This document shows positions 3,273-40,222 of a stretch of DNA of 64,000 nt, piece by piece. The translations under genes were made by a program, and so were the position numbers. A model generated the notes under the pieces. The model was given only the letters and a program-made list of their open reading frames with translations. It was not told the DNA's origin and did not search any database. Origin of the DNA: Methylobacterium sp. WL119. Its GTDB lineage: Bacteria; Pseudomonadota; Alphaproteobacteria; Rhizobiales; Beijerinckiaceae. Location of the stretch: assembly GCF_008039875.1 (NCBI RefSeq), contig NZ_VRUU01000016.1, positions 1-64,000 on the forward strand, written 5' to 3'. The stretch's first letter is position 1; every line of letters begins with the position of its first letter.

Positions 3273-3866
3273 CTACTTCGCGGCCACCTTCCCGGCCGCC
3301 CGGATCTTGGCGATCACGTCCGCGAGGTTCTCCGGCGTGACGATGCCGACGAGCTTGTCGCGGATCACGCCGTCCGGGCCGATGATGAAGGTCTCGGGCA
3401 CGCCGTAGACCCCGAAATCGATGCCGACGCGGCCGGTTTCGTCGTGACCCACCGCCTGGAACGGGACGCCGTTCTTGGCAAGGAAGCGGCGCCCGTTCTC
3501 GGCCGCGTCCTTGTAGTCGATCCCGACGAGCCGGATGCCGGGCTCGCGCGCCAGCCGCATCAGCATCGGATGCTCGACCTGGCACGGCGCGCACCACGAG
3601 GCCCAGACGTTGAGCACCGTGACGCCGCCCTTCAGGTCGGCGCTCGACAGGCCCGGCACCGGCTTGCCGTCCGCGGTCAGGCCGGGCACCGCCGGGAGCG
3701 CGAAGCTCGGCACCGGCTTGCCGATCAGCGCGGAGGGGAGGGCGGCCGGATCGACGCCGGAGCGCAGGCGCAGGAAGAACACGCCGGCCAGCACCGCGAA
3801 GGCCAGCACCGGGACGACGACGAGGAGCGAGCGGCGGACCGGCTCCGGAGGGGCCTCGACGCTCAC
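3273..3866 (-). CDS. ccmG: Thiol:disulfide interchange protein CcmG/DsbE (cytochrome c biogenesis)
   Basis: CcmG is a membrane-anchored periplasmic thioredoxin-like protein that reduces the apocytochrome c CXXCH cysteines before haem attachment. The 197-residue protein has an N-terminal membrane anchor (about residues 12-34) and a thioredoxin fold with WASWCAPC, the redox pair being C92 and C95. The GVYGVPETF block, which contains the cis-proline loop, lies downstream. Translation starts at a GTG whose last two bases are part of the ccmD stop codon (GTGA overlap), so it is probably coupled to ccmD. Confidence 0.94.
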   Translation of the reverse strand: MSVEAPPEPVRRSLLVVVPVLAFAVLAGVFFLRLRSGVDPAALPSALIGKPVPSFALPAVPGLTADGKPVPGLSSADLKGGVTVLNVWASWCAPCQVEHPMLMRLAREPGIRLVGIDYKDAAENGRRFLAKNGVPFQAVGHDETGRVGIDFGVYGVPETFIIGPDGVIRDKLVGIVTPENLADVIAKIRAAGKVAAK

Positions 3867-27920: not shown

Positions 27921-29648
27921 TCAAAACAAAAAGTACCGCTGCGCCATCGGCAGAACGTCGGCCGGCTCGCAGACCAGCAGCTCGCCGTCGGCGCGCACGT
28001 CGTAGGTCTCGGGGTCGACCTCGATCTCGGGCGTCGCGTCGTTGAGGATCATGCTCTTCTTCGAGATGCCGCCGCGCACGTTCTCCACCGCGACGAGCTG
28101 CTTCTGGACACCCAGGCGCTCGCGCAGGCCGTCCGCGATCGCGGCCTTCGAGACGAAGGTCAGCGCGGTCGCGAACGGCGCGCGGCCGTAGGCGCCGAAC
28201 ATCGGGCGATAATGCACCGGCTGCGGCGTCGGGATCGAGGCGTTGGGATCGCCCATCGGCGCCACCGCGATCATCCCGCCCTTGATCACGAGGTCGGGCT
28301 TCACCCCGAAGAAGGCCGGCGACCACAGCACGAGGTCGGCGAGCTTGCCCGGCTCGACCGAGCCGATATGGGCCGACACGCCGTGCGCGATCGCCGGGTT
28401 GATCGTGTATTTCGCGATGTAGCGCCGCGCCCGCAGGTTGTCGTTGCCCGAGGCGTCGCCGGGGAGGGCGCCGCGCTGGCGCTTCATCTTGTCCGCCGTC
28501 TGCCAGGTGCGGATCGCGACCTCGCCGACCCGGCCCATGGCCTGGCTGTCCGACGACATCATCGAGAGCGCGCCGATGTCGTGCAGGATGTCCTCGGCCG
28601 CGATCGTCTCCTTGCGGATGCGGCTCTCGGCGAAGGCGAGATCCTCCGGGATCGACGGGTCGAGGTGGTGGCACACCATCAGCATGTCGAGATGCTCGTC
28701 GATGGTGTTTTTCGTGTAGGGCCGCGTCGGGTTGGTGGACGAGGGCAGCACGTGCGCGAGCCCCGCCACCTTGATGATGTCGGGCGCGTGCCCGCCGCCG
28801 GCGCCCTCGGTGTGGAAGGCGTGGATGGTGCGGCCGGCGAACGCCGCGATCGTGTCCTCGACGAAGCCCGACTCGTTCAGCGTGTCGGTGTGGATCATCA
28901 CCTGCACGTCGTGCTGGTCGGCGACCGTCAGGCAGGTGTCGATCGCCTTCGGCGTGGTGCCCCAATCCTCGTGCAGCTTGAGCGCGCAGGCGCCGGCCCG
29001 CACCATCTCGACGAGAGCGTCGGGGCGCGAGGCGTTGCCCTTGCCGGCAAACGCCAGGTTCATCGGAAAGCTGTCGGCCGCCTCGATCATCCGGGCGATG
29101 TGCCAGGGGCCCGGCGTGCAGGTGGTGGCGAAGGTGCCGTGCGCCGGCCCGGTGCCGCCGCCGAGCATGGTGGTGATCCCCGAGCACAGGGCCTCGTCGA
29201 TCTGCTGCGGGCAGATGAAGTGGATGTGGCTGTCGAAGCCGCCGGCGGTAAGGATCTTGCCCTCCCCGGCGATCACCTCGGTGCCCGGGCCGACGACGAT
29301 GTCGACGCCCGGCTGGATGTCCGGGTTGCCGGCCTTGCCGAGCCGGACGATCCGCCCCTTCACGATCCCGACGTCGCACTTCACCACGCCCCAATGGTCG
29401 AGCACGACCGCGTTGGTGATCACCGTGTCCACCGCGCCGTCGGCGTTGGTGACCTGGCTCTGCCCCATCCCGTCGCGGATCACCTTGCCGCCGCCGAACT
29501 TCACCTCCTCGCCGTAGGTGGTGAAGTCGCGCTCGACCTCGATCTCCAGGCAGGTGTCGGCGAGCCGGATGCGGTCGCCGGTCGTGGGCCCGAACATGTC
29601 GGCATAGGCGGCGCGGGGGAGGGCGGCGCGGGGGGGCGTGTTGGCCAT
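27921..29648 (-). CDS. ureC: Urease subunit alpha UreC
   Basis: UreC carries the dinuclear nickel site that hydrolyses urea to ammonia and carbamate. The 575-residue protein is full length. Ligands are visible: HIH at 141-143 in [13 protein letters not shown], the carbamylated lysine Lys224 in [34 protein letters not shown], the flap region MVCHHLD with the catalytic His, and [12 protein letters not shown] with the nickel Asp. The start is one base after the ureAB stop. Confidence 0.98.
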
Positions 29649-29649
29649 G

Positions 29650-30270
29650 CTAGAGCGCCCCCATCACGTCGCCGCGGAAGCCGTACACCGTCCGCCCGCC
29701 GGACAGCGGCACCAGGGCCACCTCCCGCGTCGAGCCGGGCTCGAACCGCACCGCCGTGCCCGGCGCGATGTCGAGGCGCCGGCCGCGGGCCTTCTCCCGG
29801 TCGAAGCGCAACCCCGGGTTGACCTCGAAGAAATGGTAATGCGAGCCGACCTGGATCGGCCGGTCGCCGACGTTGGCGACCTCAACCACGGTGCGCTCGC
29901 AGCCTTCGTTGAACACGATCTCGCCCGGCAGCGTGGTGACGGCGCCCGGCACGTCGGGGGAGGGCGCGCCGCGCACCGGATGGTGCACGGTGACGAGCTT
30001 GGTGCCGTCGGGGAAGGTCGCCTCGACCTGGATGTCGTGGATCATCTCGGCGATGCCCGGCATCACCTGGTCCGTGGTGAGCACGTTGGCGCCCGCCTGC
30101 ATCAGCTCGGCGACCGAGCGCCCGTCGCGGGCGCCCTCGACCACGACGTCGGTGATCAGCGCGATCGCCTCCGGGTGGTTGAGCTTGACGCCGCGGGCGA
30201 GGCGGTTCCGCGCGACCTGCGCGGCCATGGCCACGAGGAGCTTGTCTTTTTCGCGAGGCGTCAGCAGCAC
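29650..30270 (-). CDS. ureAB: Fused urease gamma/beta subunit (UreAB)
   Basis: The 206-residue protein joins a UreA-type gamma domain (residues 1-100: [52 protein letters not shown]) to a UreB-type beta domain (about 105-206: [54 protein letters not shown]). Such fusions are known in Helicobacter and some alphaproteobacteria. It is the first gene of the operon. A 188-bp region separates it from the divergent acyl-CoA-dehydrogenase-like gene and should hold the promoters. No ureD precedes it. Confidence 0.96.
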
Positions 30271-30458
30271 GAGGAGCCCTCTCGGATTTCGGCTGGTCCG
30301 GACTCATTTCGGCCGGTTCGGACCTGGAGCAAGGATCATGCTGGTGCGACGGTCAAGCCTTCCGGGCGACCGGAACGTGCCGCGCCTACCGCTGATTGAA
30401 CCTTCGCGCGTCCGTACATGGCGCGTTCACGCGCACGCGTCATTCTGCGGATCCGAAC

Positions 30459-31610
30459 ATGACGATTCCCCTCCCCATCGCGCTCGTGAACGCGCGCCCC
30501 GTCGGCATCGCCGAGCTCGCCGCCTCCGCGGTGGCGCGCGCGCCGGCGCCCGATCGGCACGGCAGCTTCCCCGTCGAGGCGATCGCGGCGCTGCGCGGCG
30601 CCGGGCTGCTCGTCGCGCCGCTGCCCGAGGCGTTGGGCGGAGCGGGCTTGTGCACGCCCGGCGGCGCCGACCGCCTGCGCGACGTGCTGCGCGGGATCGG
30701 GCGCGGCAACCTCGCGGTCGGGCGGATCTACGAGGGCCACGTCAACGCGCTGGCGCTGGTGCTGCGCTACGGCAGCGATCCGGTGCGCGCGCGCTTCGCG
30801 GCCGATGCCCGTGCCGGGCACCTGTTCGGCGTGTGGAACACCGAGCCGGCGGAGCCAGGTGGTCTCGCGCTCGGCACGGAGGCGGATCCGGCGGTGCTGA
30901 CCGGCGCGAAGTCCTACGCCTCGGGGGCCGGGCACGTCACGCGCCCGCTGGTGACCGCGCGGCTTCCGGACGGGCGCCGCCAGATGCTCGTGGTGCCGCT
31001 CGATCCGGAAGCCCGCGCCGAGCTCGCCGACTGGCGCGCCCACGGGATGCGCGCCTCCGCCACCGGCACCGTCGACTTCTCCGGCCTTCGGGTCGAGCCC
31101 CTGGACCGCATCGGCGCCCCGGACGACTATTATCGCCAGCCGTTCTTCGCCGCCGGGGCGTGGCGCTTCCTCGCGGTCCAGTGCGGCGGCATCGAAGCGG
31201 TGCTGGAGGCGCATCGCGGCCACCTGACCGCGACCGGCCGCGGCGGCGATCCGCACCAGCGCGCCCGCCTCGGGCAGGCGGCCACGGCCGCCGAGACCGC
31301 GCGCCTATTCGTGGAGCATGCCGCCCGGCTGGCGACGACGGAGCCCGTCGAGGGCGACCGGGCGGTCGCCTACGTCGCCCTCGCCCGCGGCGCGGTCGAG
31401 CGGGCGGGCCTCGACGCGATCGAGCTGGCCCAGCGCTCGGTCGGCCTCTCCGGCTTCCTCGAAGCCCACCCGCTCGAGCGGCTGGTGCGCGACCTCGCGA
31501 CCTACCTGCGCCAGCCGGCCCCCGACGGCGCCCTCGTCAGCGCGGCGGCCTACGTCGCCGGGGCCGACGCCCCGGTCCACGCGCTCTGGCACGACCCCGA
31601 ACCGACCTGA
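30459..31610 (+). CDS. Acyl-CoA dehydrogenase-fold flavoprotein without the catalytic glutamate
   Basis: The 383-residue protein shows the acyl-CoA dehydrogenase fold: helical N-terminal domain (LLVAPLPEALGGAGLCTPGG), middle beta domain (GVWNTEPAEPGG, LTGAKSYASGAGHVTRPLVT) and C-terminal helices (GLSGFLEAHPLERLVRDLATYL). Where true dehydrogenases have IYEGT with the catalytic Glu, this one has LRQPAPDGAL. That pattern is closer to flavin monooxygenases of the DszC/HpaH type in the same superfamily, so it may oxidise a sugar-linked or amino substrate instead of acyl-CoA. It leads the plus arm of the glycosyltransferase cluster. Confidence 0.82.
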   Translation: MTIPLPIALVNARPVGIAELAASAVARAPAPDRHGSFPVEAIAALRGAGLLVAPLPEALGGAGLCTPGGADRLRDVLRGIGRGNLAVGRIYEGHVNALALVLRYGSDPVRARFAADARAGHLFGVWNTEPAEPGGLALGTEADPAVLTGAKSYASGAGHVTRPLVTARLPDGRRQMLVVPLDPEARAELADWRAHGMRASATGTVDFSGLRVEPLDRIGAPDDYYRQPFFAAGAWRFLAVQCGGIEAVLEAHRGHLTATGRGGDPHQRARLGQAATAAETARLFVEHAARLATTEPVEGDRAVAYVALARGAVERAGLDAIELAQRSVGLSGFLEAHPLERLVRDLATYLRQPAPDGALVSAAAYVAGADAPVHALWHDPEPT

Positions 31611-31666
31611 CAGCCGCATCGACGCACGACCCCGTCGCGCCGAGCCCTGCGAACCGCCGAGACCCG

Positions 31667-32401
31667 ATGCGCGCCGACGCCTTCCTTCCCCTCCTCGACA
31701 CCCTGCCCGTTGCCGACCTCTCGGCGATGGCGACGCGCGGCCTCGTCGTGGTCGCCCCCCATCCCGACGACGAGAGCCTCGGCTGCGGCGGCCTGATCGC
31801 CGAGGCGCGGGCGCGCGGCCTGCCCGTCCGGCTCGTCGTCGTCAGCGACGGTTGCGGCTCGCATCCGAATTCCCGCCTGTACCCGCCCGAGCGGCTGCGC
31901 GACTTGCGCGAGGACGAGACCCGCCGGGCGGTCGGCGAGCTCGGGATGGCGCCCGAGCACGTCGCCTTCCTGCGCCTGCCCGACGCGCACGTGCCGAGCA
32001 CCGGCGCGACGGCGCAGGCCGCGGCCGAGGTAATCGCGGACGCCGTGCGCGAGAGCGGGGCCGATGCGGTCTTCGTCACCTGGCGCCACGACCCGCATTG
32101 CGATCACACCGCGGCGGCCGACATCGTCGGGCTCGCCCGCCCGCTGATCCCCGGCATCCGCGCCTACGCCTACCCGGTCTGGGGCTGGACCCTGCCGCCG
32201 GAGCGCGAGGTCGGGCCGGCGCCGACCGGATTCCGGCTCGACGTCGAGGCGCACCGCCCCGCCAAGCGCCGGGCGGTCGCGGCGCACGCCTCGCAGACGA
32301 CGCGGCTGATCGCCGACGATCCGGACGGCTTCCGCCTATCGGAGGCGATGGTCGAGCGCCTGTGCGGCCCCTACGAACGCTTCGTGGAGCTGCCGCGATG
32401 A
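31667..32401 (+). CDS. PIG-L family deacetylase
   Basis: The 244-residue protein belongs to the zinc-dependent LmbE/PIG-L N-acetylglucosamine deacetylase family (relatives: PIG-L, MshB, BshB). It has the signature VVAPHPDDESLGCGG (about 28-42), with the metal His and catalytic Asp, and the third ligand in WRHDPHCDHTAAADI (about 141-155). It would remove an N-acetyl group from a sugar or GlcNAc conjugate. Its stop overlaps the start of the methyltransferase gene (ATGA), so the two activities are made together. By memory, fused PIG-L/SAM-methyltransferase proteins exist elsewhere. Confidence 0.93.
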   Translation: MRADAFLPLLDTLPVADLSAMATRGLVVVAPHPDDESLGCGGLIAEARARGLPVRLVVVSDGCGSHPNSRLYPPERLRDLREDETRRAVGELGMAPEHVAFLRLPDAHVPSTGATAQAAAEVIADAVRESGADAVFVTWRHDPHCDHTAAADIVGLARPLIPGIRAYAYPVWGWTLPPEREVGPAPTGFRLDVEAHRPAKRRAVAAHASQTTRLIADDPDGFRLSEAMVERLCGPYERFVELPR

Positions 32402-33009
32402 GCCGCCGCGCCGACTCGCTGACGCCGGATTACTTCGCCGGGCTCTACGGCGCCGACCCCGATCCCGATCCGTGGGGCTTCACCACCAGCGCCTACGAGG
32501 CCGCCAAGTACGCCGCGACGCTCGAAGCCCTGCCGCGCGAGCGCTACGCCTCGGGCCTCGAGATCGGCTGCTCGATCGGCGTCCTCACCCACCGGCTCGC
32601 GCCGCGCTGCGCGGCGCTGCTCGGCATCGACGTGGTCGAGACCGCGCTCGCCGCCGCCCGCGCCCGCAACGCCGCGATGCCGTGGGTGCGTTTCGAGGCC
32701 TGCGCGATCCCGGATACGTGGCCGGCGGGCCGGTTCGACCTGATCGTGCTGTCGGAGGTGGCGTACTTCTTCTCGCGCGCGGACGTCGCGCGGATCGCGG
32801 CGCGGATCGGGTCGTCGATCCTGCCCGGCGGCCACATCGTGCTGGTGCACTGGCTCGGCGAGACCGACTATCCGCTCTCGGGCGACGCCGCGGCCGAGGC
32901 CCTGATCGCGGATGCGCGCTTCGCACGGCCGGTGCATCGGATCCGCGCCGCCGAGTACCGCCTCGACGTGCTGCACGTGGACGGGGTCGCGGCCGAGGTC
33001 TCGGCGTGA
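32398..33009 (+). CDS. NodS-like class I SAM-dependent methyltransferase
   Basis: The 203-residue protein has the methyltransferase motif I LEIGCSIGVLTHRLA (about 54-68), motif II LLGIDVVETALAAAR, and a post-II block FDLIVLSEVAYFF. The N-terminal DPDPWGFTTSAYEAAKYAAT resembles NodS, the N-methyltransferase that acts on deacetylated chitooligosaccharide in Nod factor synthesis. Coupling to a PIG-L deacetylase fits N-methylation of a freed amino group, but this is an inference. It overlaps both neighbours by four bases. Confidence 0.88.
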   Translation: MSRRADSLTPDYFAGLYGADPDPDPWGFTTSAYEAAKYAATLEALPRERYASGLEIGCSIGVLTHRLAPRCAALLGIDVVETALAAARARNAAMPWVRFEACAIPDTWPAGRFDLIVLSEVAYFFSRADVARIAARIGSSILPGGHIVLVHWLGETDYPLSGDAAAEALIADARFARPVHRIRAAEYRLDVLHVDGVAAEVSA

Positions 33010-33854
33010 GCGTCAGCGTCGTCACCCTGAACAAGGGCCGCGGGCACCATCTCGCGCGCCTGCTCGAAGGCCTCGGGCGCGGCGCGCCGCCGGCGGAGGC
33101 CGTGATCGTCGAGATGGGCGGCGACGACGGCCCGCTGCCGGATCTCGGCTTCCCGGTGCGGCGCACGCATCTGCGGCGCGACGGCCTGCCCCTCGCCGCG
33201 GCCCGCAACGCCGGACGCCGCGCGGCGTCCGGCGACGTCCTGGTCTACCTCGACGTCGATTGCATCCCGTCCGCGACCCTGGTGTCCGGGCTCGCCGCAT
33301 CCGTCGCCGAGCACGACGGGCTGATCTGCTGCGAGATCCGCTACCTTCCGGGCGCGGCGGTCTCCGACGGCTGGACCGAAGCCGGCCTCGACCGGGTCGG
33401 CCACCGCCATCCGGCGCGCCGCTTCCCGGAGGCCGGCGTGATCCCGGCGCCGCAACCGGGCCTGTTCTGGTCGCTCGCCTTCGCGATGCGGGCCGCCACC
33501 TACGACCGCATCGGCGGCTTCGACGAGGGCTTCACGGGCTACGGCGCCGAGGACACCGACCTCGCCTTCCGCGCGGCGCAGGCCGGGGTGCCGGTGCTGT
33601 TCGCCGGCGGGATGCACGCCTTCCACCAGCACCACCTGTCCTGCGACCCGCCGCTGCAGCACTTCACCGACATCGTCGCCAACGCCCGGCGCTTCCACCG
33701 ACGCCACGGGATCTGGCCGATGGACGGCTGGCTCGACGCCTTCGCCGGGCTCGGGCTGGTGGCGGCCGACCGCGCCGGCGGCCTCGCCGTGCTGCGTTCC
33801 CCGACCGAGGCCGAGATCGCCGCGGCGCAGGTCACCGCCGACCGGCCGTTCTGA
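33006..33854 (+). CDS. Glycosyltransferase family 2 with galactosyltransferase-type C domain
   Basis: The 282-residue GT-A protein starts at a GTG overlapping the methyltransferase stop. It has SVVTLNKGRGHHLARLLEGL, the metal-binding DVD-type motif in LVYLDVDCIPS (about 79-89), FPVRRTHLRRDGLPLAAARNAG, and the C-terminal GYGAEDTDLAFRAAQAG block typical of the Glyco_transf_7C region, with the catalytic acidic pair. No membrane helix is present. The stop lies in a palindrome shared with the convergent gene (33851-33866). Confidence 0.9.
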   Translation: MSVSVVTLNKGRGHHLARLLEGLGRGAPPAEAVIVEMGGDDGPLPDLGFPVRRTHLRRDGLPLAAARNAGRRAASGDVLVYLDVDCIPSATLVSGLAASVAEHDGLICCEIRYLPGAAVSDGWTEAGLDRVGHRHPARRFPEAGVIPAPQPGLFWSLAFAMRAATYDRIGGFDEGFTGYGAEDTDLAFRAAQAGVPVLFAGGMHAFHQHHLSCDPPLQHFTDIVANARRFHRRHGIWPMDGWLDAFAGLGLVAADRAGGLAVLRSPTEAEIAAAQVTADRPF

Positions 33855-33862
33855 GCGCGGGC

Positions 33863-34933
33863 TCAGCGCGCGTCGAGGCCGGCGGCGATCCGCTCGATCG
33901 TCGCGGCCAGCCGCGGCACGGCGTCGGGATCGTGCAGGGCGGACATCGCCGCGGGGTCGAGGGCGAGGCCGGCCGCGACGACGCCGGGCCAGGCGGACGC
34001 CTCCGGCCAGGACGGGCGCACCACGGCGGCGCCGAGGCACTCGAGCGCCGCCGCCTTCTCGGTCTGCTCGCCGAAGGCCCGCGGTTCGGGCAGGCAGACG
34101 AAGCGGCGTCCCGCAGCCGCCACCGCCGCGACCACGCCGTCGCCGCCGCCCCCAACGACCAGGGCGGCGCGGGCGAGATGCGGGCCGATCTCGGCGACCC
34201 ATCCGTGCAGGTGCAGGTTCGGGGGCGGATCGGCGACCATGCCCGCGACCGGACCGAGGACGTGCCAGGCGCGATCCGGCACCGCTCGCGCCGCGGCGGC
34301 AAGCTCGGCGGCGTCGCCGCCCGCGCCGCCGCGGCCGAACACCACGACGATCGGGCCGTCGGGGTCCGGGGCAGGGCCGGGGCGGGCGGTCGTGCCGATG
34401 AAGCCGGCGTAATGGGTCCTGTCGCGCACCCAGGCCGGGACGGACGCGCCGTCGAGGGCGCGCGGGAACGGTGCGATCAGGCGCTCGGCGCTGCGGAAGG
34501 CCTCGAGATGGGGCGGATCGGTCCGGGTGCCGGCGAGCCGCACCATCAGCACCGGCACCGACATCAGGCGCGCGAACAGCGCGACCTCGACCGAGACGTC
34601 GACCACGATCAGGGCGGGGTCCTCCCGCGCGATCCAGGCCGCGATCGCCGCCATGCGGTCGCGCAGGCCCGCCAGCCCGAGGGGCGCGTAGTGGAAGGCC
34701 TCGGGGCGCGTCGCCGCCCCGTCACGGCCGTCGAAAGCGGCCTCGGGCGAACGGGCCTCGGGCAAGCGGTCGTCGGGCAGGTCGAGGACGCTGCCCGGCG
34801 CCGCGTCGCGATCGAGGCCGGCCAGCGTGCCGATCAGGGTGCAGGGCCGGTCGAGGTGCCGGGCGATCGCGCAGGCGCGCTGCCAATGGCCGGCGCCCTG
34901 ATGGTGGACGTAGTAGCCGACCGGCCGCTTCAC
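33863..34933 (-). CDS. GT-B glycosyltransferase (MurG/UDP-glucuronosyltransferase-like)
   Basis: The 356-residue protein has the GT-B start VGYYVHHQGAGHWQRACAIARHL (PVGYYVHHQGAGHWQRACA at residues 3-21) and a C-terminal nucleotide-sugar domain with ARAALVVGGGGDGVVAAVAA and a Glu-Gln pair in FGEQTEKAAALE (about 285-296), as in MurG/MGT enzymes. It starts at a GTG overlapping the preceding GT2 stop (GTGA), so it is coupled to that gene. It is the last gene of the minus arm and converges with the plus-arm GT2. Confidence 0.86.
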   Translation of the reverse strand: MKRPVGYYVHHQGAGHWQRACAIARHLDRPCTLIGTLAGLDRDAAPGSVLDLPDDRLPEARSPEAAFDGRDGAATRPEAFHYAPLGLAGLRDRMAAIAAWIAREDPALIVVDVSVEVALFARLMSVPVLMVRLAGTRTDPPHLEAFRSAERLIAPFPRALDGASVPAWVRDRTHYAGFIGTTARPGPAPDPDGPIVVVFGRGGAGGDAAELAAAARAVPDRAWHVLGPVAGMVADPPPNLHLHGWVAEIGPHLARAALVVGGGGDGVVAAVAAAGRRFVCLPEPRAFGEQTEKAAALECLGAAVVRPSWPEASAWPGVVAAGLALDPAAMSALHDPDAVPRLAATIERIAAGLDAR

Positions 34934-36015
34934 GCGGCCGCGCTCGGGCGGAGGATCGTGTCGAAGGCGGCGAGGGCTGCGTCGAGTTCCATCTCCGGAG
35001 CCGGTCCGTCGGCGGCCTCGCACAGCGGGCCCGCCCGCTCGACGAAGGCGATGTCGTTGACGCAGGCATCCGGGCTGATGGATGCGAGGTCCGCGGCGGT
35101 GAGGCCGAACGCCGCGAGGGCGGCAAGGCGCCCGGGTCCGGCCGTGCCGCGGAAGACGCTGCGCAGCGCCGCGCGCCGCGCGATCACGGCTTCCCAGTGG
35201 CTCGGTGCGGGCAGGCGGTAGGGGAGGCCGGCGCGGGCGGTGACGGCGCGCCGGACCATCTCGGTGGCCATGCCGCCCTGCGCCCGGCCGGCGGCGCGGT
35301 CGGAGACCATCACCGACACCTCGGGACAGTGGCGCAGGCGTCCGCCGGCCTCGCGGACGCGGGCGACGAGGGCGTTGTCCTCGCCGCGCGGCAGCGCCGG
35401 CAGGCCGCCGACGCTGCGATACAGCGCGGCGCGCAGCGCGAGGCTCGCGCCGGTATGGTCGCCGTGACGGGGGGCGGGATCGTGCGGCGGCGGATCGAGC
35501 GCGTCCTCGATCCGGCGGACGGCGGCCCAGTAACGCTCGATCCGGTCATGCAGGTCGGCGAGCGCCGGATCGGTCTCTTGTTCCGGGTCGATCACGAGAC
35601 GGCCGCCGACGATCTCGGCGCCCTCCAGCGCCCGGAGGTTGGCAGCGAGCCAGGTCCGCGGCACCCGCGCGTCGGCGTCGGTGGTGAGCAGGATGCCGTC
35701 GGGATGCCCGTCGGCGTCGAGCCAGGCGGCGCCGGCATCGAGCGCCATCCGCCGCGCGGTGCCGACATGGGCCTCCGCCGGCTCGAGATGCGCCTCGATC
35801 ACCCGGATCGCGAGCGCGGGCGCCTCGCCCGCCGCCTCCATCGCGCGCACGGCGGCGACCGTGCCGTCGGTGCAGTTGTTGGCCACGATCAGGACGCGCA
35901 GGGGCGTCCCGGCCGAGAGGCCGTCCTGAGCGGCCAGCGAGCGGAGGAGGCGCGGCAGGCAGCGCACCTCGTCGCGGGCGGGCACGCAGACGACCGCTTG
36001 TTCGGACGGGCGCAT
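34930..36015 (-). CDS. Glycosyltransferase family 2
   Basis: The 361-residue GT-A protein has VCVPARDEVRCLPRLLRSLA (VCVPARDEVRCLPRLLRSL), LIVANNCTDGTVAAVRAM and the DXD-type LLTTDADARVPRTWLAANL, followed by GRLVIDPE and the acceptor-side PRGEDNALVARVREAGG. No transmembrane helices are evident, so it is cytoplasmic or peripheral. It follows the GT4 gene by two bases and overlaps the GT-B gene, forming a three-gene operon. Confidence 0.9.
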   Translation of the reverse strand: MRPSEQAVVCVPARDEVRCLPRLLRSLAAQDGLSAGTPLRVLIVANNCTDGTVAAVRAMEAAGEAPALAIRVIEAHLEPAEAHVGTARRMALDAGAAWLDADGHPDGILLTTDADARVPRTWLAANLRALEGAEIVGGRLVIDPEQETDPALADLHDRIERYWAAVRRIEDALDPPPHDPAPRHGDHTGASLALRAALYRSVGGLPALPRGEDNALVARVREAGGRLRHCPEVSVMVSDRAAGRAQGGMATEMVRRAVTARAGLPYRLPAPSHWEAVIARRAALRSVFRGTAGPGRLAALAAFGLTAADLASISPDACVNDIAFVERAGPLCEAADGPAPEMELDAALAAFDTILRPSAAA

Positions 36016-36017
36016 GG

Positions 36018-37121
36018 TCAGGCCTGCGCGCCGGCGACGCGGCGCAGGCGCGGCACCGGCAGCAGCGAGAGGTCGTGCGCGGCGAGCGCCGCGTCGTAGA
36101 GCGCCTCGTAGCCGGCGGTCATCGCGTCGGCGTCGAACAGGTCCTCGGCACGCTGCCGGCAGGCGCGGCGGTCGAGGGCGACGGCGCGGACGATCGCATC
36201 CGACAGGCTCGCGACGTCGTCGGGCGCCGCCAGCGCGCCGCAGGTGGCGTCGAGGATGTCGGGGAGCGCGCCGCGGCGGAAGCCGGCGACCGGCGTGCCG
36301 CAGGCCAGCGCCTCGGCGACCACCAGCCCGAACGGCTCCTCCCAGCGCGGGGTGACCAGGGCCGCCCGCGCCCCGCCGAGGTGACGCGCGAGCTCGGCAT
36401 GGCCGAGATGGCCGAGATCGACGAGGTCGTCCCCGAGGCGCGGGGCGATCCACTCCGCCCAGTAGGCGGGATTGGGCCGCGGGCCGGCGAAGTGCAGCGG
36501 GAGGCCGGCGGCGCGCGCGGCGTCGATCGCCAGGTGCAGCCCCTTCTCCGGCACGATCCGGCCGGACCAGAACACGTAGGGCACCGGGTCCGGCGCCGGG
36601 CGGTAGACGAAGACCGTGAGCTCGACGCCGTTGCCGATGACGACCGGCTCGGCGACGATCTCGCGCCACGCGTCGGCCGTGTGGTTCGAGACGGCGGCGA
36701 ACGGCATGCCGGCGGGGGCGGCGCGCACGCCCGCCTCAAGCGAGTCGAACGGGGGCGTGTGAAGCGCCGTCACCATCGGCACCGCGAGGTCCCGGCTTCG
36801 GCGCAGCGGCAGGTCGTGAAGACTGTTGTTGTGCACGATGTCGAAGTCGCCGGCCCGCACCATCTCCATGATCCGCGCATAGGCTGCGTTCTCGGCGCGA
36901 TCGATGGACGCATGACGCAGTGGATCGCCGAGCCCGTCACCGGTCGGCGGGCAGACGCAGACCGGCGCAAGTGTCGGATCCGATCCCTCCGAGGCGAACA
37001 ACGTCACGTCGTGCCCGCGTCGCATCAGGGCGCCGGCGAGGAGATGCGTGTGCATCTCCAGACCGCCCGGATACGGCTGCGCGATGGGGAACTTCAGGTG
37101 GGCGATGAGAGCGATCTTCAC
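36018..37121 (-). CDS. Glycosyltransferase family 4
   Basis: The 367-residue GT-B retaining enzyme has KIALIAHLKFPIAQPYPGG, LEMHTHLLAGALMRRGHDVT, the hinge region AVSNHTADAWRE, the phosphate-binding FWSGRIVPEKGLHLAIDAAR and the catalytic EX7E motif in EEPFGLVVAEALACGTPVAG (EEPFGLVVAE). It starts at GTG 37121; the open frame extends 45 bp further without better start signals. It is the first gene of the minus arm. A hairpin-like atcctg/caggat pair at 37167-37188 lies upstream. Confidence 0.92.
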   Translation of the reverse strand: MKIALIAHLKFPIAQPYPGGLEMHTHLLAGALMRRGHDVTLFASEGSDPTLAPVCVCPPTGDGLGDPLRHASIDRAENAAYARIMEMVRAGDFDIVHNNSLHDLPLRRSRDLAVPMVTALHTPPFDSLEAGVRAAPAGMPFAAVSNHTADAWREIVAEPVVIGNGVELTVFVYRPAPDPVPYVFWSGRIVPEKGLHLAIDAARAAGLPLHFAGPRPNPAYWAEWIAPRLGDDLVDLGHLGHAELARHLGGARAALVTPRWEEPFGLVVAEALACGTPVAGFRRGALPDILDATCGALAAPDDVASLSDAIVRAVALDRRACRQRAEDLFDADAMTAGYEALYDAALAAHDLSLLPVPRLRRVAGAQA

Positions 37122-37408
37122 GGAAGCTCGTTTTCCAGCGACGGAGGCCGTGGTCGCACATCGCATATCCTGTCTGTGTGCAGGATGAACGGATGCAACA
37201 TTGCTGATTCACCGACCATCCCGGAAGCCGAGGATGACCGCAACGGTTCCCGCGTCAACGCAAGGTGCTGGGGACAGCGGGCTGCCATCGTATACGCCCG
37301 GGCGGCACAGGTCTCGCGGCGCCGGGGCCGCGGCGGACTTTCACATTGGATCAATCGAGGGGCCGTGCGATCCTGCGCTATGATGCAGGACCATCCGATC
37401 GGCGCACG

Positions 37409-38122
37409 ATGACGGGACGCGAGGACGGCCGGATCCGCCATCCCGCCTGGGTGCGGGCGACGCACTGGATCAACGCCGCCGCGTTCGTCGCGCTCGCGGT
37501 CAGCGGCACGGCGATCCTGCTGGCGCTGCCGCGGCTGTTCTGGGGCGAGACGGGCGCGCTCGATGCCCCGGCATGGATCGCCCTGCCGTTGCCGGTGAAC
37601 CTCGAACAGACCGGCTGGGGCCGCAACATCCACTTCCTCGCCGCCTGGATCTTCGTCCTCAACGGGCTGCTCTATCTCGCCTGGAGCCTCGCGACGCGCC
37701 ACCTGTCCCGCCGGCTGCTACCGGATGCGGACCAGGTCCGCCCGGCGCACATCGCCGGCACGGTGCGCGAGCACCTGCACCTGCGCGGCCCGGGGCCGAC
37801 GCAGACCCGCTACAACGTGCTGCAGAAGCTCGCCTACCTGGCGGTCGTCCTGGTGCTGTCGCCGCTGATGCTGCTCACCGGCCTGACGATGTCGCCCGGG
37901 GTCACGACGGCGATCCCCGAGCTGTTCGACCTGTTCGGCGGACGGCAGTCGGCCCGGACCCTGCACTTCCTGTGCGCGTCCCTGCTGGTGGCGTTCCTCG
38001 CAGTGCATGTCTGGCAGGTCCTGGCCAACGGCCCGGCGGCGCTGATGCGCGGGATGACCATCGGGCGCCGGGCGCCGGCCGCGGAACCCGCGCGGCGGCA
38101 CGAGCGCGAGGCGAAGCGATGA
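37409..38122 (+). CDS. Cytochrome b/b6 domain protein (b561-type haem subunit)
   Basis: The 237-residue membrane protein has four or more helices and conserved haem histidines: HPAWVRATHWINAAAFVALAV (RATHWINAAAFVALAVS), NIHFLAAWIFVLNGL, and LHFLCASLLVAFLAVHVWQVL (RTLHFLCASLLVAFLAVH). It resembles gamma subunits of formate dehydrogenase or Ni-Fe hydrogenase and MsrQ. Its stop overlaps the next gene (ATGA), so it is the likely electron partner of the molybdopterin enzyme encoded there. Confidence 0.88.
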   Translation: MTGREDGRIRHPAWVRATHWINAAAFVALAVSGTAILLALPRLFWGETGALDAPAWIALPLPVNLEQTGWGRNIHFLAAWIFVLNGLLYLAWSLATRHLSRRLLPDADQVRPAHIAGTVREHLHLRGPGPTQTRYNVLQKLAYLAVVLVLSPLMLLTGLTMSPGVTTAIPELFDLFGGRQSARTLHFLCASLLVAFLAVHVWQVLANGPAALMRGMTIGRRAPAAEPARRHEREAKR

Positions 38123-38875: not shown

Positions 38876-40222
38876 TCACTGCGAGGCGGCCGCCCCCGTC
38901 ACCCGCCAGACCGCGTTGCCGACGTCGTCCGAGACGAGCAGCGCCCCGGTCTTGTCGAAGGCCACGTCCACGGGGCGCCCCTGCGCCTTCTCGTCGGCGT
39001 CGAGGAAGCCGGCCAGCACGTCCACCGGCGTGCCCGCGGGCCGGCCGTCGGCGAACGGCACGTAGATCACCTTGTAGCCGCTCTTCGGACGACGGTTCCA
39101 CGAGCCGTGCTGGGCGACGAACAGGCCGCTGGTCCAGGCCGGGGGCAGGTTCGCGCCCCGCGAGAACGCGATGCCGAGCGAGGCCGTGTGGGGACCGAGG
39201 GCGTAGTCCGGCACGATCGCCTTGGCGACGAGGTCCGGGCGCTGCGGGGTGACGCGCTCGTCGACGTGCGGGCCGTAATAGCTGTAGGGCCAGCCGTAGA
39301 ACCCGCCCTCCTTCACCGCGGTGACGTAGTCCGGCACGAGGTCGCTGCCGATCTCGTCGCGCTCGTTGACCGCGGCCCAGAGCGCGCCGGTCTCGGGCTC
39401 GATGCCCAACCCGTTCGGGTTGCGCAGGCCGGTGGCATATTCGCGGAAGGCCTTGGTCGCGATCGTGTATTCCCAGATCGCGGCGCGGCCCTTCTCGGCC
39501 TCGAGCCCGTTCTCGGCCACGTTGCTGTTCGAGCCGACGGTGATGAACAGCTTGGCGCCGTCGGGGCTCGCGACCACGTTCTTGGTCCAGTGATGGTTGA
39601 TCCCGGCCGGCAGGTCGACGATCTTCTCGGGCGTCGCGCCGTTCTCGGTCCCGCCGGCCTCGTAGGGCACCCGCACCAGCGCGTCGGCGTTGGCGACGTA
39701 GAGGTCGCTGCCGACCAGCGCCATGCCGAACGGCGAGGTCAGGCCCTTCAGATAGACCGTCTTCACCTCGGCGACGCCGTCCCCGTCGCCGTCGCGGAGC
39801 AGCACGATCCGGTCCGGGCTCTTCACGCCGGCGCCGGCCCGATCCATGATCTTGCCCGCGATCCAGGCCTTCACGCCGGGAAACGTGCCGTCGGAGGGCG
39901 GGGTGTTGCTCTCGGCGACGAGCACGTCGCCGTTCGGCAGGGTGTAGAGCCAGCGCGGATGGTCGAGCCCCTCGGCGAAGGCTGCGACCGAGAGGCCGGC
40001 GGCCGGCGCGGGCTTGGCGCCCTTCGCCCAGCCGGTGGCGGGCGCGATGTTGACGGTGGGCAGCGGCGTCGCGTTCGGGGCGGGCAGCGTCGGGCTCGCC
40101 CCCTGGCCGTCGGCGAGCGGGAGCGACGCGCTCTCGGGATAGACCGCGAAGCGCACGAAGGCCGCGCCGCCGAGGAGGACCACGGCCAGCGCCGCGAGCC
40201 CGAGTTTTGCCAATGTCCGCAT
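38876..40222 (-). CDS. PQQ-dependent sugar (sorbosone/glucose-type) dehydrogenase
   Basis: The 448-residue protein has an N-terminal membrane anchor or signal ([20 protein letters not shown]) and a six-bladed beta-propeller of the soluble glucose dehydrogenase/L-sorbosone dehydrogenase family: [21 protein letters not shown] ([18 protein letters not shown]), [37 protein letters not shown] with the catalytic-type His, and [16 protein letters not shown]. Calcium-binding Asp-rich turns are visible. It oxidises a sugar or aldehyde in the periplasm using PQQ. It converges with the molybdoenzyme gene; both stops lie in the palindrome 38863-38878. Confidence 0.9.

Follow-up and report, generated by a model that had tools for sequence, protein, structure and literature searches.

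The DNA examined here, a window of 64,000 nucleotides from Methylobacterium sp. WL119 (NZ_VRUU01000016.1, positions 1 to 64,000; contig 76 of genome G000 in our set, where G and L numbers denote genomes and loci), carries within positions 30459-37121 seven open reading frames (ORFs) for an acyl-CoA-dehydrogenase (ACAD)-like flavoprotein, a PIG-L deacetylase, a NodS-like methyltransferase (MT) and four glycosyltransferases (GTs). A preliminary description had presented them as a convergent seven-gene cluster with ATGA and GTGA overlaps, and the ORF coordinates agree with it in strands, overlaps and facing stops. Pfam assigns six of the seven proteins, the GT-B protein being the exception. The features are listed below.

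30459-31610, plus strand: ACAD-like flavoprotein, core gene 1 (Pfam Acyl-CoA_dh_N, 31.3 bits, cut-off 22.9)
31667-32401, plus strand: PIG-L (LmbE-type) deacetylase, core gene 2 (Pfam PIG-L, 92.5 bits, cut-off 28.2)
32398-33009, plus strand: NodS-like class I S-adenosylmethionine (SAM) methyltransferase, MT, core gene 3 (Pfam NodS, 64.2 bits, cut-off 24)
33006-33854, plus strand: GT2a, GT2-type glycosyltransferase, GTG start (Pfam Glyco_tranf_2_2, Glycos_transf_2)
33863-34933, minus strand: GT-B-fold glycosyltransferase, GTG start (without Pfam family; structure match)
34930-36015, minus strand: GT2b, GT2 glycosyltransferase, paralogue of the core GT2 (Pfam Glyco_tranf_2_3)
36018-37121, minus strand: GT4 glycosyltransferase, first of the minus run, GTG start (Pfam Glycos_transf_1, Glyco_transf_4)
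33852-33865, no strand: facing stops of the two runs, TGAGCGCGGGCTCA, a small inverted repeat by sequence reading

The overlap of PIG-L and MT is ATGA (32398-32401) and that of MT and GT2a is GTGA (33006-33009), while GT-B and GT2b share 4 bases and 2 bases separate GT2b from GT4; the operons were deduced from gene spacing and strand alone. The palindromic stop region proposed for the meeting point is present as TGAGCGCGGGCTCA, but because both stops are TGA its outer three bases pair automatically, which leaves only about two informative pairs, and a terminator scan made no call at 33852-33865. No sigma-70-type promoter was found in a scan of 30000-37600. A urease gamma/beta gene flanks the set on the left, and a cytochrome b561 and a molybdopterin oxidoreductase gene on the right; since these are genes of other kinds, the borders of the cluster are clear.

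The set recurs as a whole in other genomes. In G034 and G142, of the same order but a different family, all seven genes point the same way in a single run, GT4 > GT2b > GTB > ACAD > PIGL > MT > GT2a (loci L143 and L144), as would be expected from the earlier proposal that the genes form one set. Within the genus, G278 has the convergent form of the window (L227/L238), after which come genes for an HPII-like catalase (896 bits, cut-off 1102), Ku and LigD. In G117 the set is split, with ACAD-MT at one place and PIGL, GT2a, GTB, GT2b and GT4 together elsewhere. The convergent layout is one of several, and the recurrence in other families indicates that the gene set is more than chance. Two independent runs that merely happen to face each other, with the pathway confined to ACAD-PIGL-MT-GT2a, would be in keeping with the finding that GT4 (6/28) and GT-B (7/28) occur near PIG-L, among 80 loci retrieved with PIG-L, solely in those of Methylobacterium and Methylorubrum (0/52 others); however, all seven form one run in two genomes of another family, G278 repeats the convergent layout, and in G273 GT-B and GT2a stand beside MT and ACAD, which renders this explanation improbable.

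A neighbourhood search with PIG-L, the check suggested by the preliminary description, revealed co-occurrence of the genes across families and phyla. The loci from named genomes were the best 80 of 554, so that this sample follows PIG-L similarity; ACAD, PIG-L and MT stand together in 49 of the 80. Outside Methylobacterium and Methylorubrum the trio was present in 45 of 52 loci (all except L044, L045, L058, L065, L067, L072 and L084), with the order ACAD > PIG-L > MT in 44 and accompanied by GT2b in 38, and within the 28 loci of these two genera ACAD was near PIG-L in only four, MT in 12 and GT2a in 23. The hosts span five phyla and include Ancylobacter, Acetobacter, Gluconobacter, Rhodanobacter, many cyanobacteria, Dyadobacter, Verrucomicrobia and a Solirubrobacterales bacterium. 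Twelve plasmid loci were fetched from 43 records, of which 11 carry ACAD > PIGL > MT and one, Sinorhizobium pSymB, PIG-L only. Of 150 genomes drawn from the order, 11 gave a PIG-L match at 1e-10, and ACAD and MT were found beside a PIG-L in eight of these (fetched loci) and also in G000, but not in G117 and G027. The widespread core is described as ACAD-PIG-L-MT plus one GT2; GT2a, GT-B and GT4 occur in fewer lineages. Across 81 clustered loci, the non-core families next in frequency reached at most eight loci outside Methylobacterium and are general by Pfam. Eight recurrent neighbour families were identified: histidine kinase, ABC ATPase, SDR, GSDH, LigD, zinc alcohol dehydrogenase, MFS and CobW. 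Some cassettes carry further genes. An annotated TnpB-family gene (L103:6484-7836) lies between ACAD and PIG-L on a Deinococcus wulumuqiensis plasmid, and L214 (same genome as L136) and L153, both of genus g159, have a second PIG-L in the cassette together with an adjoining TonB receptor gene.

We then consider whole genomes. Of 59 genomes of the genus, 57 contain ACAD and 57 PIG-L (G462 has neither, G476 only ACAD, and G482, which is 91% complete, only PIG-L), and the two are adjacent in 14 of the 56 that have both, as counted from positions. In the phylum, 31 of 299 genomes have MT, 30 have PIG-L and 21 have both (Fisher 5e-18), with 15 genomes sharing them once the own genus is left out (6e-13), p values that overstate independence because the genomes are related, and counts in which misses are possible because only the best first-look candidates were scored. 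MT and PIG-L are adjacent in 18 of the 21 genomes with both. ACAD was detected at 1e-40 in 10 of the 299 genomes, all having PIG-L and nine having MT; further cassettes hold weaker ACAD homologues. Two gene fusions were also observed. GT2b and ACAD are joined in one 787-residue ORF of M. aquaticum, and a 1001-residue protein of G136 has an MT relative (122 bits) between a GT2 and a polysaccharide-deacetylase domain, the latter presumably of NodB's family. Judged by its domains, the G136 fusion sets another deacetylase family beside the same methyltransferase family; similar long ORFs are present in G035 and G258, Pfam having been run on the G136 ORF alone.

The preliminary assignments of a PIG-L deacetylase and an amine-type methyltransferase agree with Pfam and with the MT profile search. 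In PIG-L, residues H32, D34, D35, H144, D146 and H147, which we take to be the metal site, are each kept in 81/81 alignment rows, and its nearest named relatives are those of Methylobacterium and Methylorubrum. The MT profile matched, in the PDB, 4isc (9.7e-43), NodS 3ofj (2.5e-27) and then phosphoethanolamine N-methyltransferases, and therefore an amine acceptor is favoured and the enzyme is probably N-methylating; as the NCBIfam NodS equivalog NF041650 was not reached (72.3 vs 300 bits), MT is NodS-like and not NodS. A second MT lies on contig 186 of G000. This pair of activities recalls the amine branch of Nod factor synthesis, in which NodC is a GT2, NodB a deacetylase and NodS an N-methyltransferase. 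Both systems have the logic of GT2, deacetylation and N-methylation in common, the window MT falls in Pfam NodS, and the G136 protein joins an MT relative to a GT2 and a polysaccharide deacetylase. In contrast to the Nod system, the window has PIG-L in place of NodB, its MT is under the NodS equivalog cut-off, no acyltransferase domain was found among the seven proteins (Pfam), an ACAD-fold flavoenzyme is added, and the cassette also occurs outside rhizobia.

A GT4 together with a PIG-L deacetylase is likewise common to the window and to the mycothiol and bacillithiol systems (MshA-MshB, BshA-BshB), and in NCBIfam PIG-L is matched best by BshB1 and BshB2; given also the oxidative-stress genes in the neighbourhood of some relatives, we considered a pathway of this kind to a low-molecular-weight thiol or redox cofactor. 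However, the matches are far under the cut-offs, with PIG-L reaching 50.7 of 182.5, 45.7 of 195.25 and 28.6 of 224.35 bits for the BshB/MshB equivalogs and GT4 reaching 30.8 of 273.7 bits for BshA, no ligase was found among the seven proteins (Pfam), and the window-type GT4, which lies outside the widespread core, was present in just 6 of the 80 PIG-L loci. We regard a thiol pathway as very improbable, and membership in mycothiol or bacillithiol synthesis was rejected on the missed equivalog cut-offs.

For the first gene, the preliminary name of an acyl-CoA-dehydrogenase-like flavoprotein is upheld by fold and Pfam, whereas profile and Foldseek ranking favour a flavin monooxygenase over a dehydrogenase. 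An AF2 (AlphaFold 2) model built from 37 homologues (pLDDT 90.6) has the ACAD fold, and 13 of its top 14 Foldseek chains, which stem from a handful of enzymes, are named DszC, TdsC, MsuC, flavin monooxygenase or nitrososynthase/DnmZ; 3mxl and DnmZ are among the top 14, rank 1 is 5gj7, labelled putative acyl-CoA dehydrogenase, and rank 15 is a short-chain acyl-CoA dehydrogenase. When the family profile was compared with the PDB, the five best sequences were DszC, TdsC and MsuC. Residues R344, D345, L346, Q352, P353 and D356 are invariant in 50/50 aligned homologues. Counting from RD, the position expected for the dehydrogenase glutamate is a proline, the alignments to dehydrogenases ending before that position; we assume here that the catalytic glutamate of acyl-CoA dehydrogenases is placed after the RD motif, and acyl-CoA dehydrogenase families can site the catalytic base elsewhere. 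Known ACAD-fold flavin monooxygenases (DszC, TdsC, MsuC and the nitrososynthases DnmZ, 3mxl and KijD3) have the fold in common with the window protein over most of the chain and include its best profile and Foldseek matches, but identity is about 20-25%, the RD...QP..D residues are its own, and the cluster is without a flavin reductase. A review (PMC6165268) describes group D monooxygenases as having the acyl-CoA dehydrogenase fold and lists N-hydroxylation among their reactions. The flavoprotein is most likely an ACAD-fold flavin monooxygenase.

Two observations on ACAD-like proteins may be recorded. The Deinococcus ACAD-like proteins L095:5755-8001 and L103:4104-6473 bear an N-terminal extension of about 400 residues that neither a Pfam family nor any of the seven cluster profiles matched, and G465 (L117-L120), of the same genus, has four ACAD-like matches and a single PIG-L match.

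The three glycosyltransferase families named at the outset, GT2, GT4 and GT-B, were recovered by Pfam, profile and Foldseek matches. The AlphaFold model of GT-B (pLDDT 72, moderate confidence) has the GT-B fold, matching CalG1, OleD and MurG in Foldseek, with E values of 8e-14 and others below 0.001 to GT-B enzymes at a TM of about 0.6, and its profile matches MurG 7d1i (2.4e-7). By sequence, the nearest solved relatives of GT4 are 7fg9 (2.2e-41) and the UDP-glucose:tetrahydrobiopterin glucosyltransferase 5zer (2.5e-40); no pterin enzyme was found among the seven proteins (Pfam). Relatives of GT2a adjoin MT in G034, G142 and G273. In the tree, the window GT2b falls in a clade with the G034 and G142 copies (support 98/94), and the core-type GT2b of this genome (G000:C228:66685-67728) groups with the core-type GT2b of other Methylobacterium; by this phylogeny, the window GT2b is a paralogue of the core GT2, whose own representative lies on another contig.

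With four GTs in the window, the genes could instead decorate a lipid-linked or surface glycan (a short oligosaccharide, lipopolysaccharide or glycolipid), the deacetylated and methylated amine tuning envelope charge. In line with this, GT4 is weakly like GlcNAc-phosphatidylglycerol synthase (54.8 bits, cut-off 480), GT2a is weakly like EpsD (54.1 bits, cut-off 370) and the GT-B profile touches MurG, but every curated cut-off was missed, and no polysaccharide polymerase is among the eight identified neighbour families, although their ABC and MFS members leave export possible. As had been noted at first, no polymerase, flippase or exporter domain was found among the seven proteins (Pfam). A surface glycan is a possible product, and a less probable one than a small amino-sugar glycoside.

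An association with stress genes, missed by the earlier description, emerged from some relatives. Sixteen stress-gene queries drawn from annotated plasmid loci were compared with 34 cassette loci (11 fetched earlier and 23 for the test; L225 and L226 show a partial core) and with 57 random 19-kb control loci of 20 genomes, 15 of them cassette genomes in the test. Stress genes were found in 12/34 cassette loci and 2/57 random loci (p 9e-5), with Mn-catalase in 6/34 and LigD in 5/34, both against 0/57. Addition of L154-L156 gave 12/37 vs 2/57 (p 2e-4), further addition of the split Methylobacterium loci L115-L126 gave 13/49 vs 2/57 (p 7e-4), and collapsing to genera gave 6/20 (simulated p 4e-4); for 30 named loci the stress-gene count was 7. 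Ten of the 16 queries (USP, one YihY, AI-2E, Dps, BON, MscS, general stress protein, two ferritin-like and DUF4142) had no match in the 34 cassette loci. As a side observation, three Methylobacterium cassettes have a stand-alone gene for a LigD 3'-phosphoesterase domain immediately upstream of ACAD (L230:8188-8748, L231:7896-8408 and L236:8181-8720), in two of them between GT2b and ACAD.

The same counts contained DUF892 in 5/34 and GlgX in 4/34 loci against 0/57 each, both chosen post hoc and with the query's own locus or genome included. GlgX raises the question of an osmolyte-like compound, made by the core through decoration of sucrose, trehalose or a glycogen-derived sugar. One of the four GlgX loci, L214, is from the query's genome; the match stands directly before ACAD in L214 and L153, and the query passes the GlgX cut-off (1092 vs 640.9). 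An SPS/SPP-like protein, in turn, heads a GTB-GT2a-MT-ACAD run in G273 and adjoins GT2a in G342. However, the lineages are few and were picked post hoc, the SPS-like proteins are under the SPS cut-off (446 and 421 bits vs 576), and neither the GlgX nor the SPS-like query matched in the window, so that an osmolyte appears unlikely. These SPS/SPP-like bifunctional proteins (L240:8275-10659 and L220:1592-3664) come from two genomes that belong to different classes, and homologues of GTB and GT2a lie with them.

The upstream regions of relatives were scanned for the EcfG-type motif GGAAC-N16-CGTT, which is documented for alphaproteobacterial general stress genes (PMC7083833, PMC3892343). Before the core GT2b, a gene singled out after the first look, GGAAC-N16/17-CGTT was found in 5/24 loci (M. 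oxalidis, three Ancylobacter and Chelatococcus), a sequence match with a permuted mean of 0.08 that none of about 300 permuted motifs equalled, and in a second set in 3/16, one being M. oxalidis again (permuted mean 0.02). The loci of the first set were taken as alphaproteobacterial by title and kinship, L053 and L061 being titled Proteobacteria only. The motif was absent before PIG-L (0/31 and 0/2) and before GT4 (0/8 and 0/6). An EcfG motif in cyanobacteria was rejected, as it preceded 1/27 ACAD genes and 14/300 permuted motifs did equally well. For Sphingomonas melonis Fr1, PMC6599016 reports an EcfG-dependent run of glycosyltransferase genes, #3505-3509.

Taken together, the flavoprotein ranking and the G136 fusion suggest glycosylation, deacetylation, N-methylation and oxidation, and we put at about one in two the probability that the seven genes constitute a single pathway for the synthesis of an amino-sugar glycoside, which is probably a small molecule. 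In this pathway, a GT2 would attach an N-acetylated amino sugar to an acceptor, PIG-L would then strip the acetyl group, the NodS-like enzyme would methylate the freed amine, and the ACAD-fold flavin monooxygenase would oxidise the product, possibly on the amine or beside it in the manner of sugar nitrososynthases; further sugars would be added by GT4, GT-B, GT2b and GT2a in Methylobacterium and in family f35. We infer this reaction order, the N-oxidation, the donor sugars and the acceptor from the enzyme families.

Several results weigh against this reading. Of the 56 genomes of the genus that have both ACAD and PIG-L, 42 carry them on separate contigs or at a distance from each other, and among the 299 genomes ten have MT without PIG-L and nine PIG-L without MT. 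For the flavoprotein, KijD3 (7.5e-20) and the nitrososynthase 3mxl (5.2e-18) rank below DszC and several dehydrogenases in the profile search, and no flavin reductase was found among the seven genes (Pfam; the rest of the genome was not searched). An acyl-CoA dehydrogenase role is not favoured, since profile and Foldseek rank monooxygenases first, but a single-protein search puts acyl-CoA dehydrogenase first and VIA-align Z scores of 39.4 to 36.8 do not separate monooxygenases from dehydrogenases, which leaves that role possible. As for stress, the split Methylobacterium loci L115-L126 show no excess (1/12), the genus-level p becomes 0.03 at a control rate of 5/57, and in the window all stress queries stayed below the scoring cut. 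The post hoc choice of GT2b counts here too: over all leader genes the EcfG motif occurs in 5/96 and 3/48, equalled by 1/300 and 1/400 permuted motifs, it was not found before ACAD (0/33 and 0/21), and none was detected within 350 bases of ACAD or GT4 in the window (spacers 15-18, one mismatch allowed). The stress association is a property of some relatives, and for the window neither stress genes nor the EcfG motif were found.

More tentatively, the cassette, patchily spread across phyla and at times carried on plasmids, may make a stress metabolite of a new class, an amino-sugar glycoside that is N-methylated and N-oxidised and is produced under general stress control; the flavoprotein would then represent a new family of sugar N-oxygenases with the signature RDLxxYLRQPxxD, and a protective role under stress would be conceivable for such a product. 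The pathway appears to be real, conserved, uncharacterised and apparently undescribed: in agreement with the preliminary claim, no paper on the gene set was found in one open-licence library, which is weak evidence of absence given the narrow search terms.

Two further features of the window lie near the cluster. A glucose/sorbosone dehydrogenase-like protein is encoded at 38879-40222 (minus strand), and its family is also present in four other PIG-L loci (ORF clustering). At 29192-29479 (plus strand) there is a match to Rfam RF02514 (5' ureB sRNA; 78.4 bits, gathering 40) opposite a 575-aa ORF, presumably urease alpha; the match may be merely conserved coding sequence.

The enzymes of the core are at present annotated singly as 'acyl-CoA dehydrogenase', 'PIG-L deacetylase' and 'methyltransferase', and roughly one in three of the loci tested has genes for catalases, Ku/LigD or the like near the cassette. 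If the proposed reading is true, they would form a three- to four-gene pathway, so far undescribed, that is common to proteobacteria, cyanobacteria, Deinococcus, Verrucomicrobia and a few others, which would provide a candidate for a metabolite that may be linked to stress, and one ACAD-like family would need a corrected annotation.

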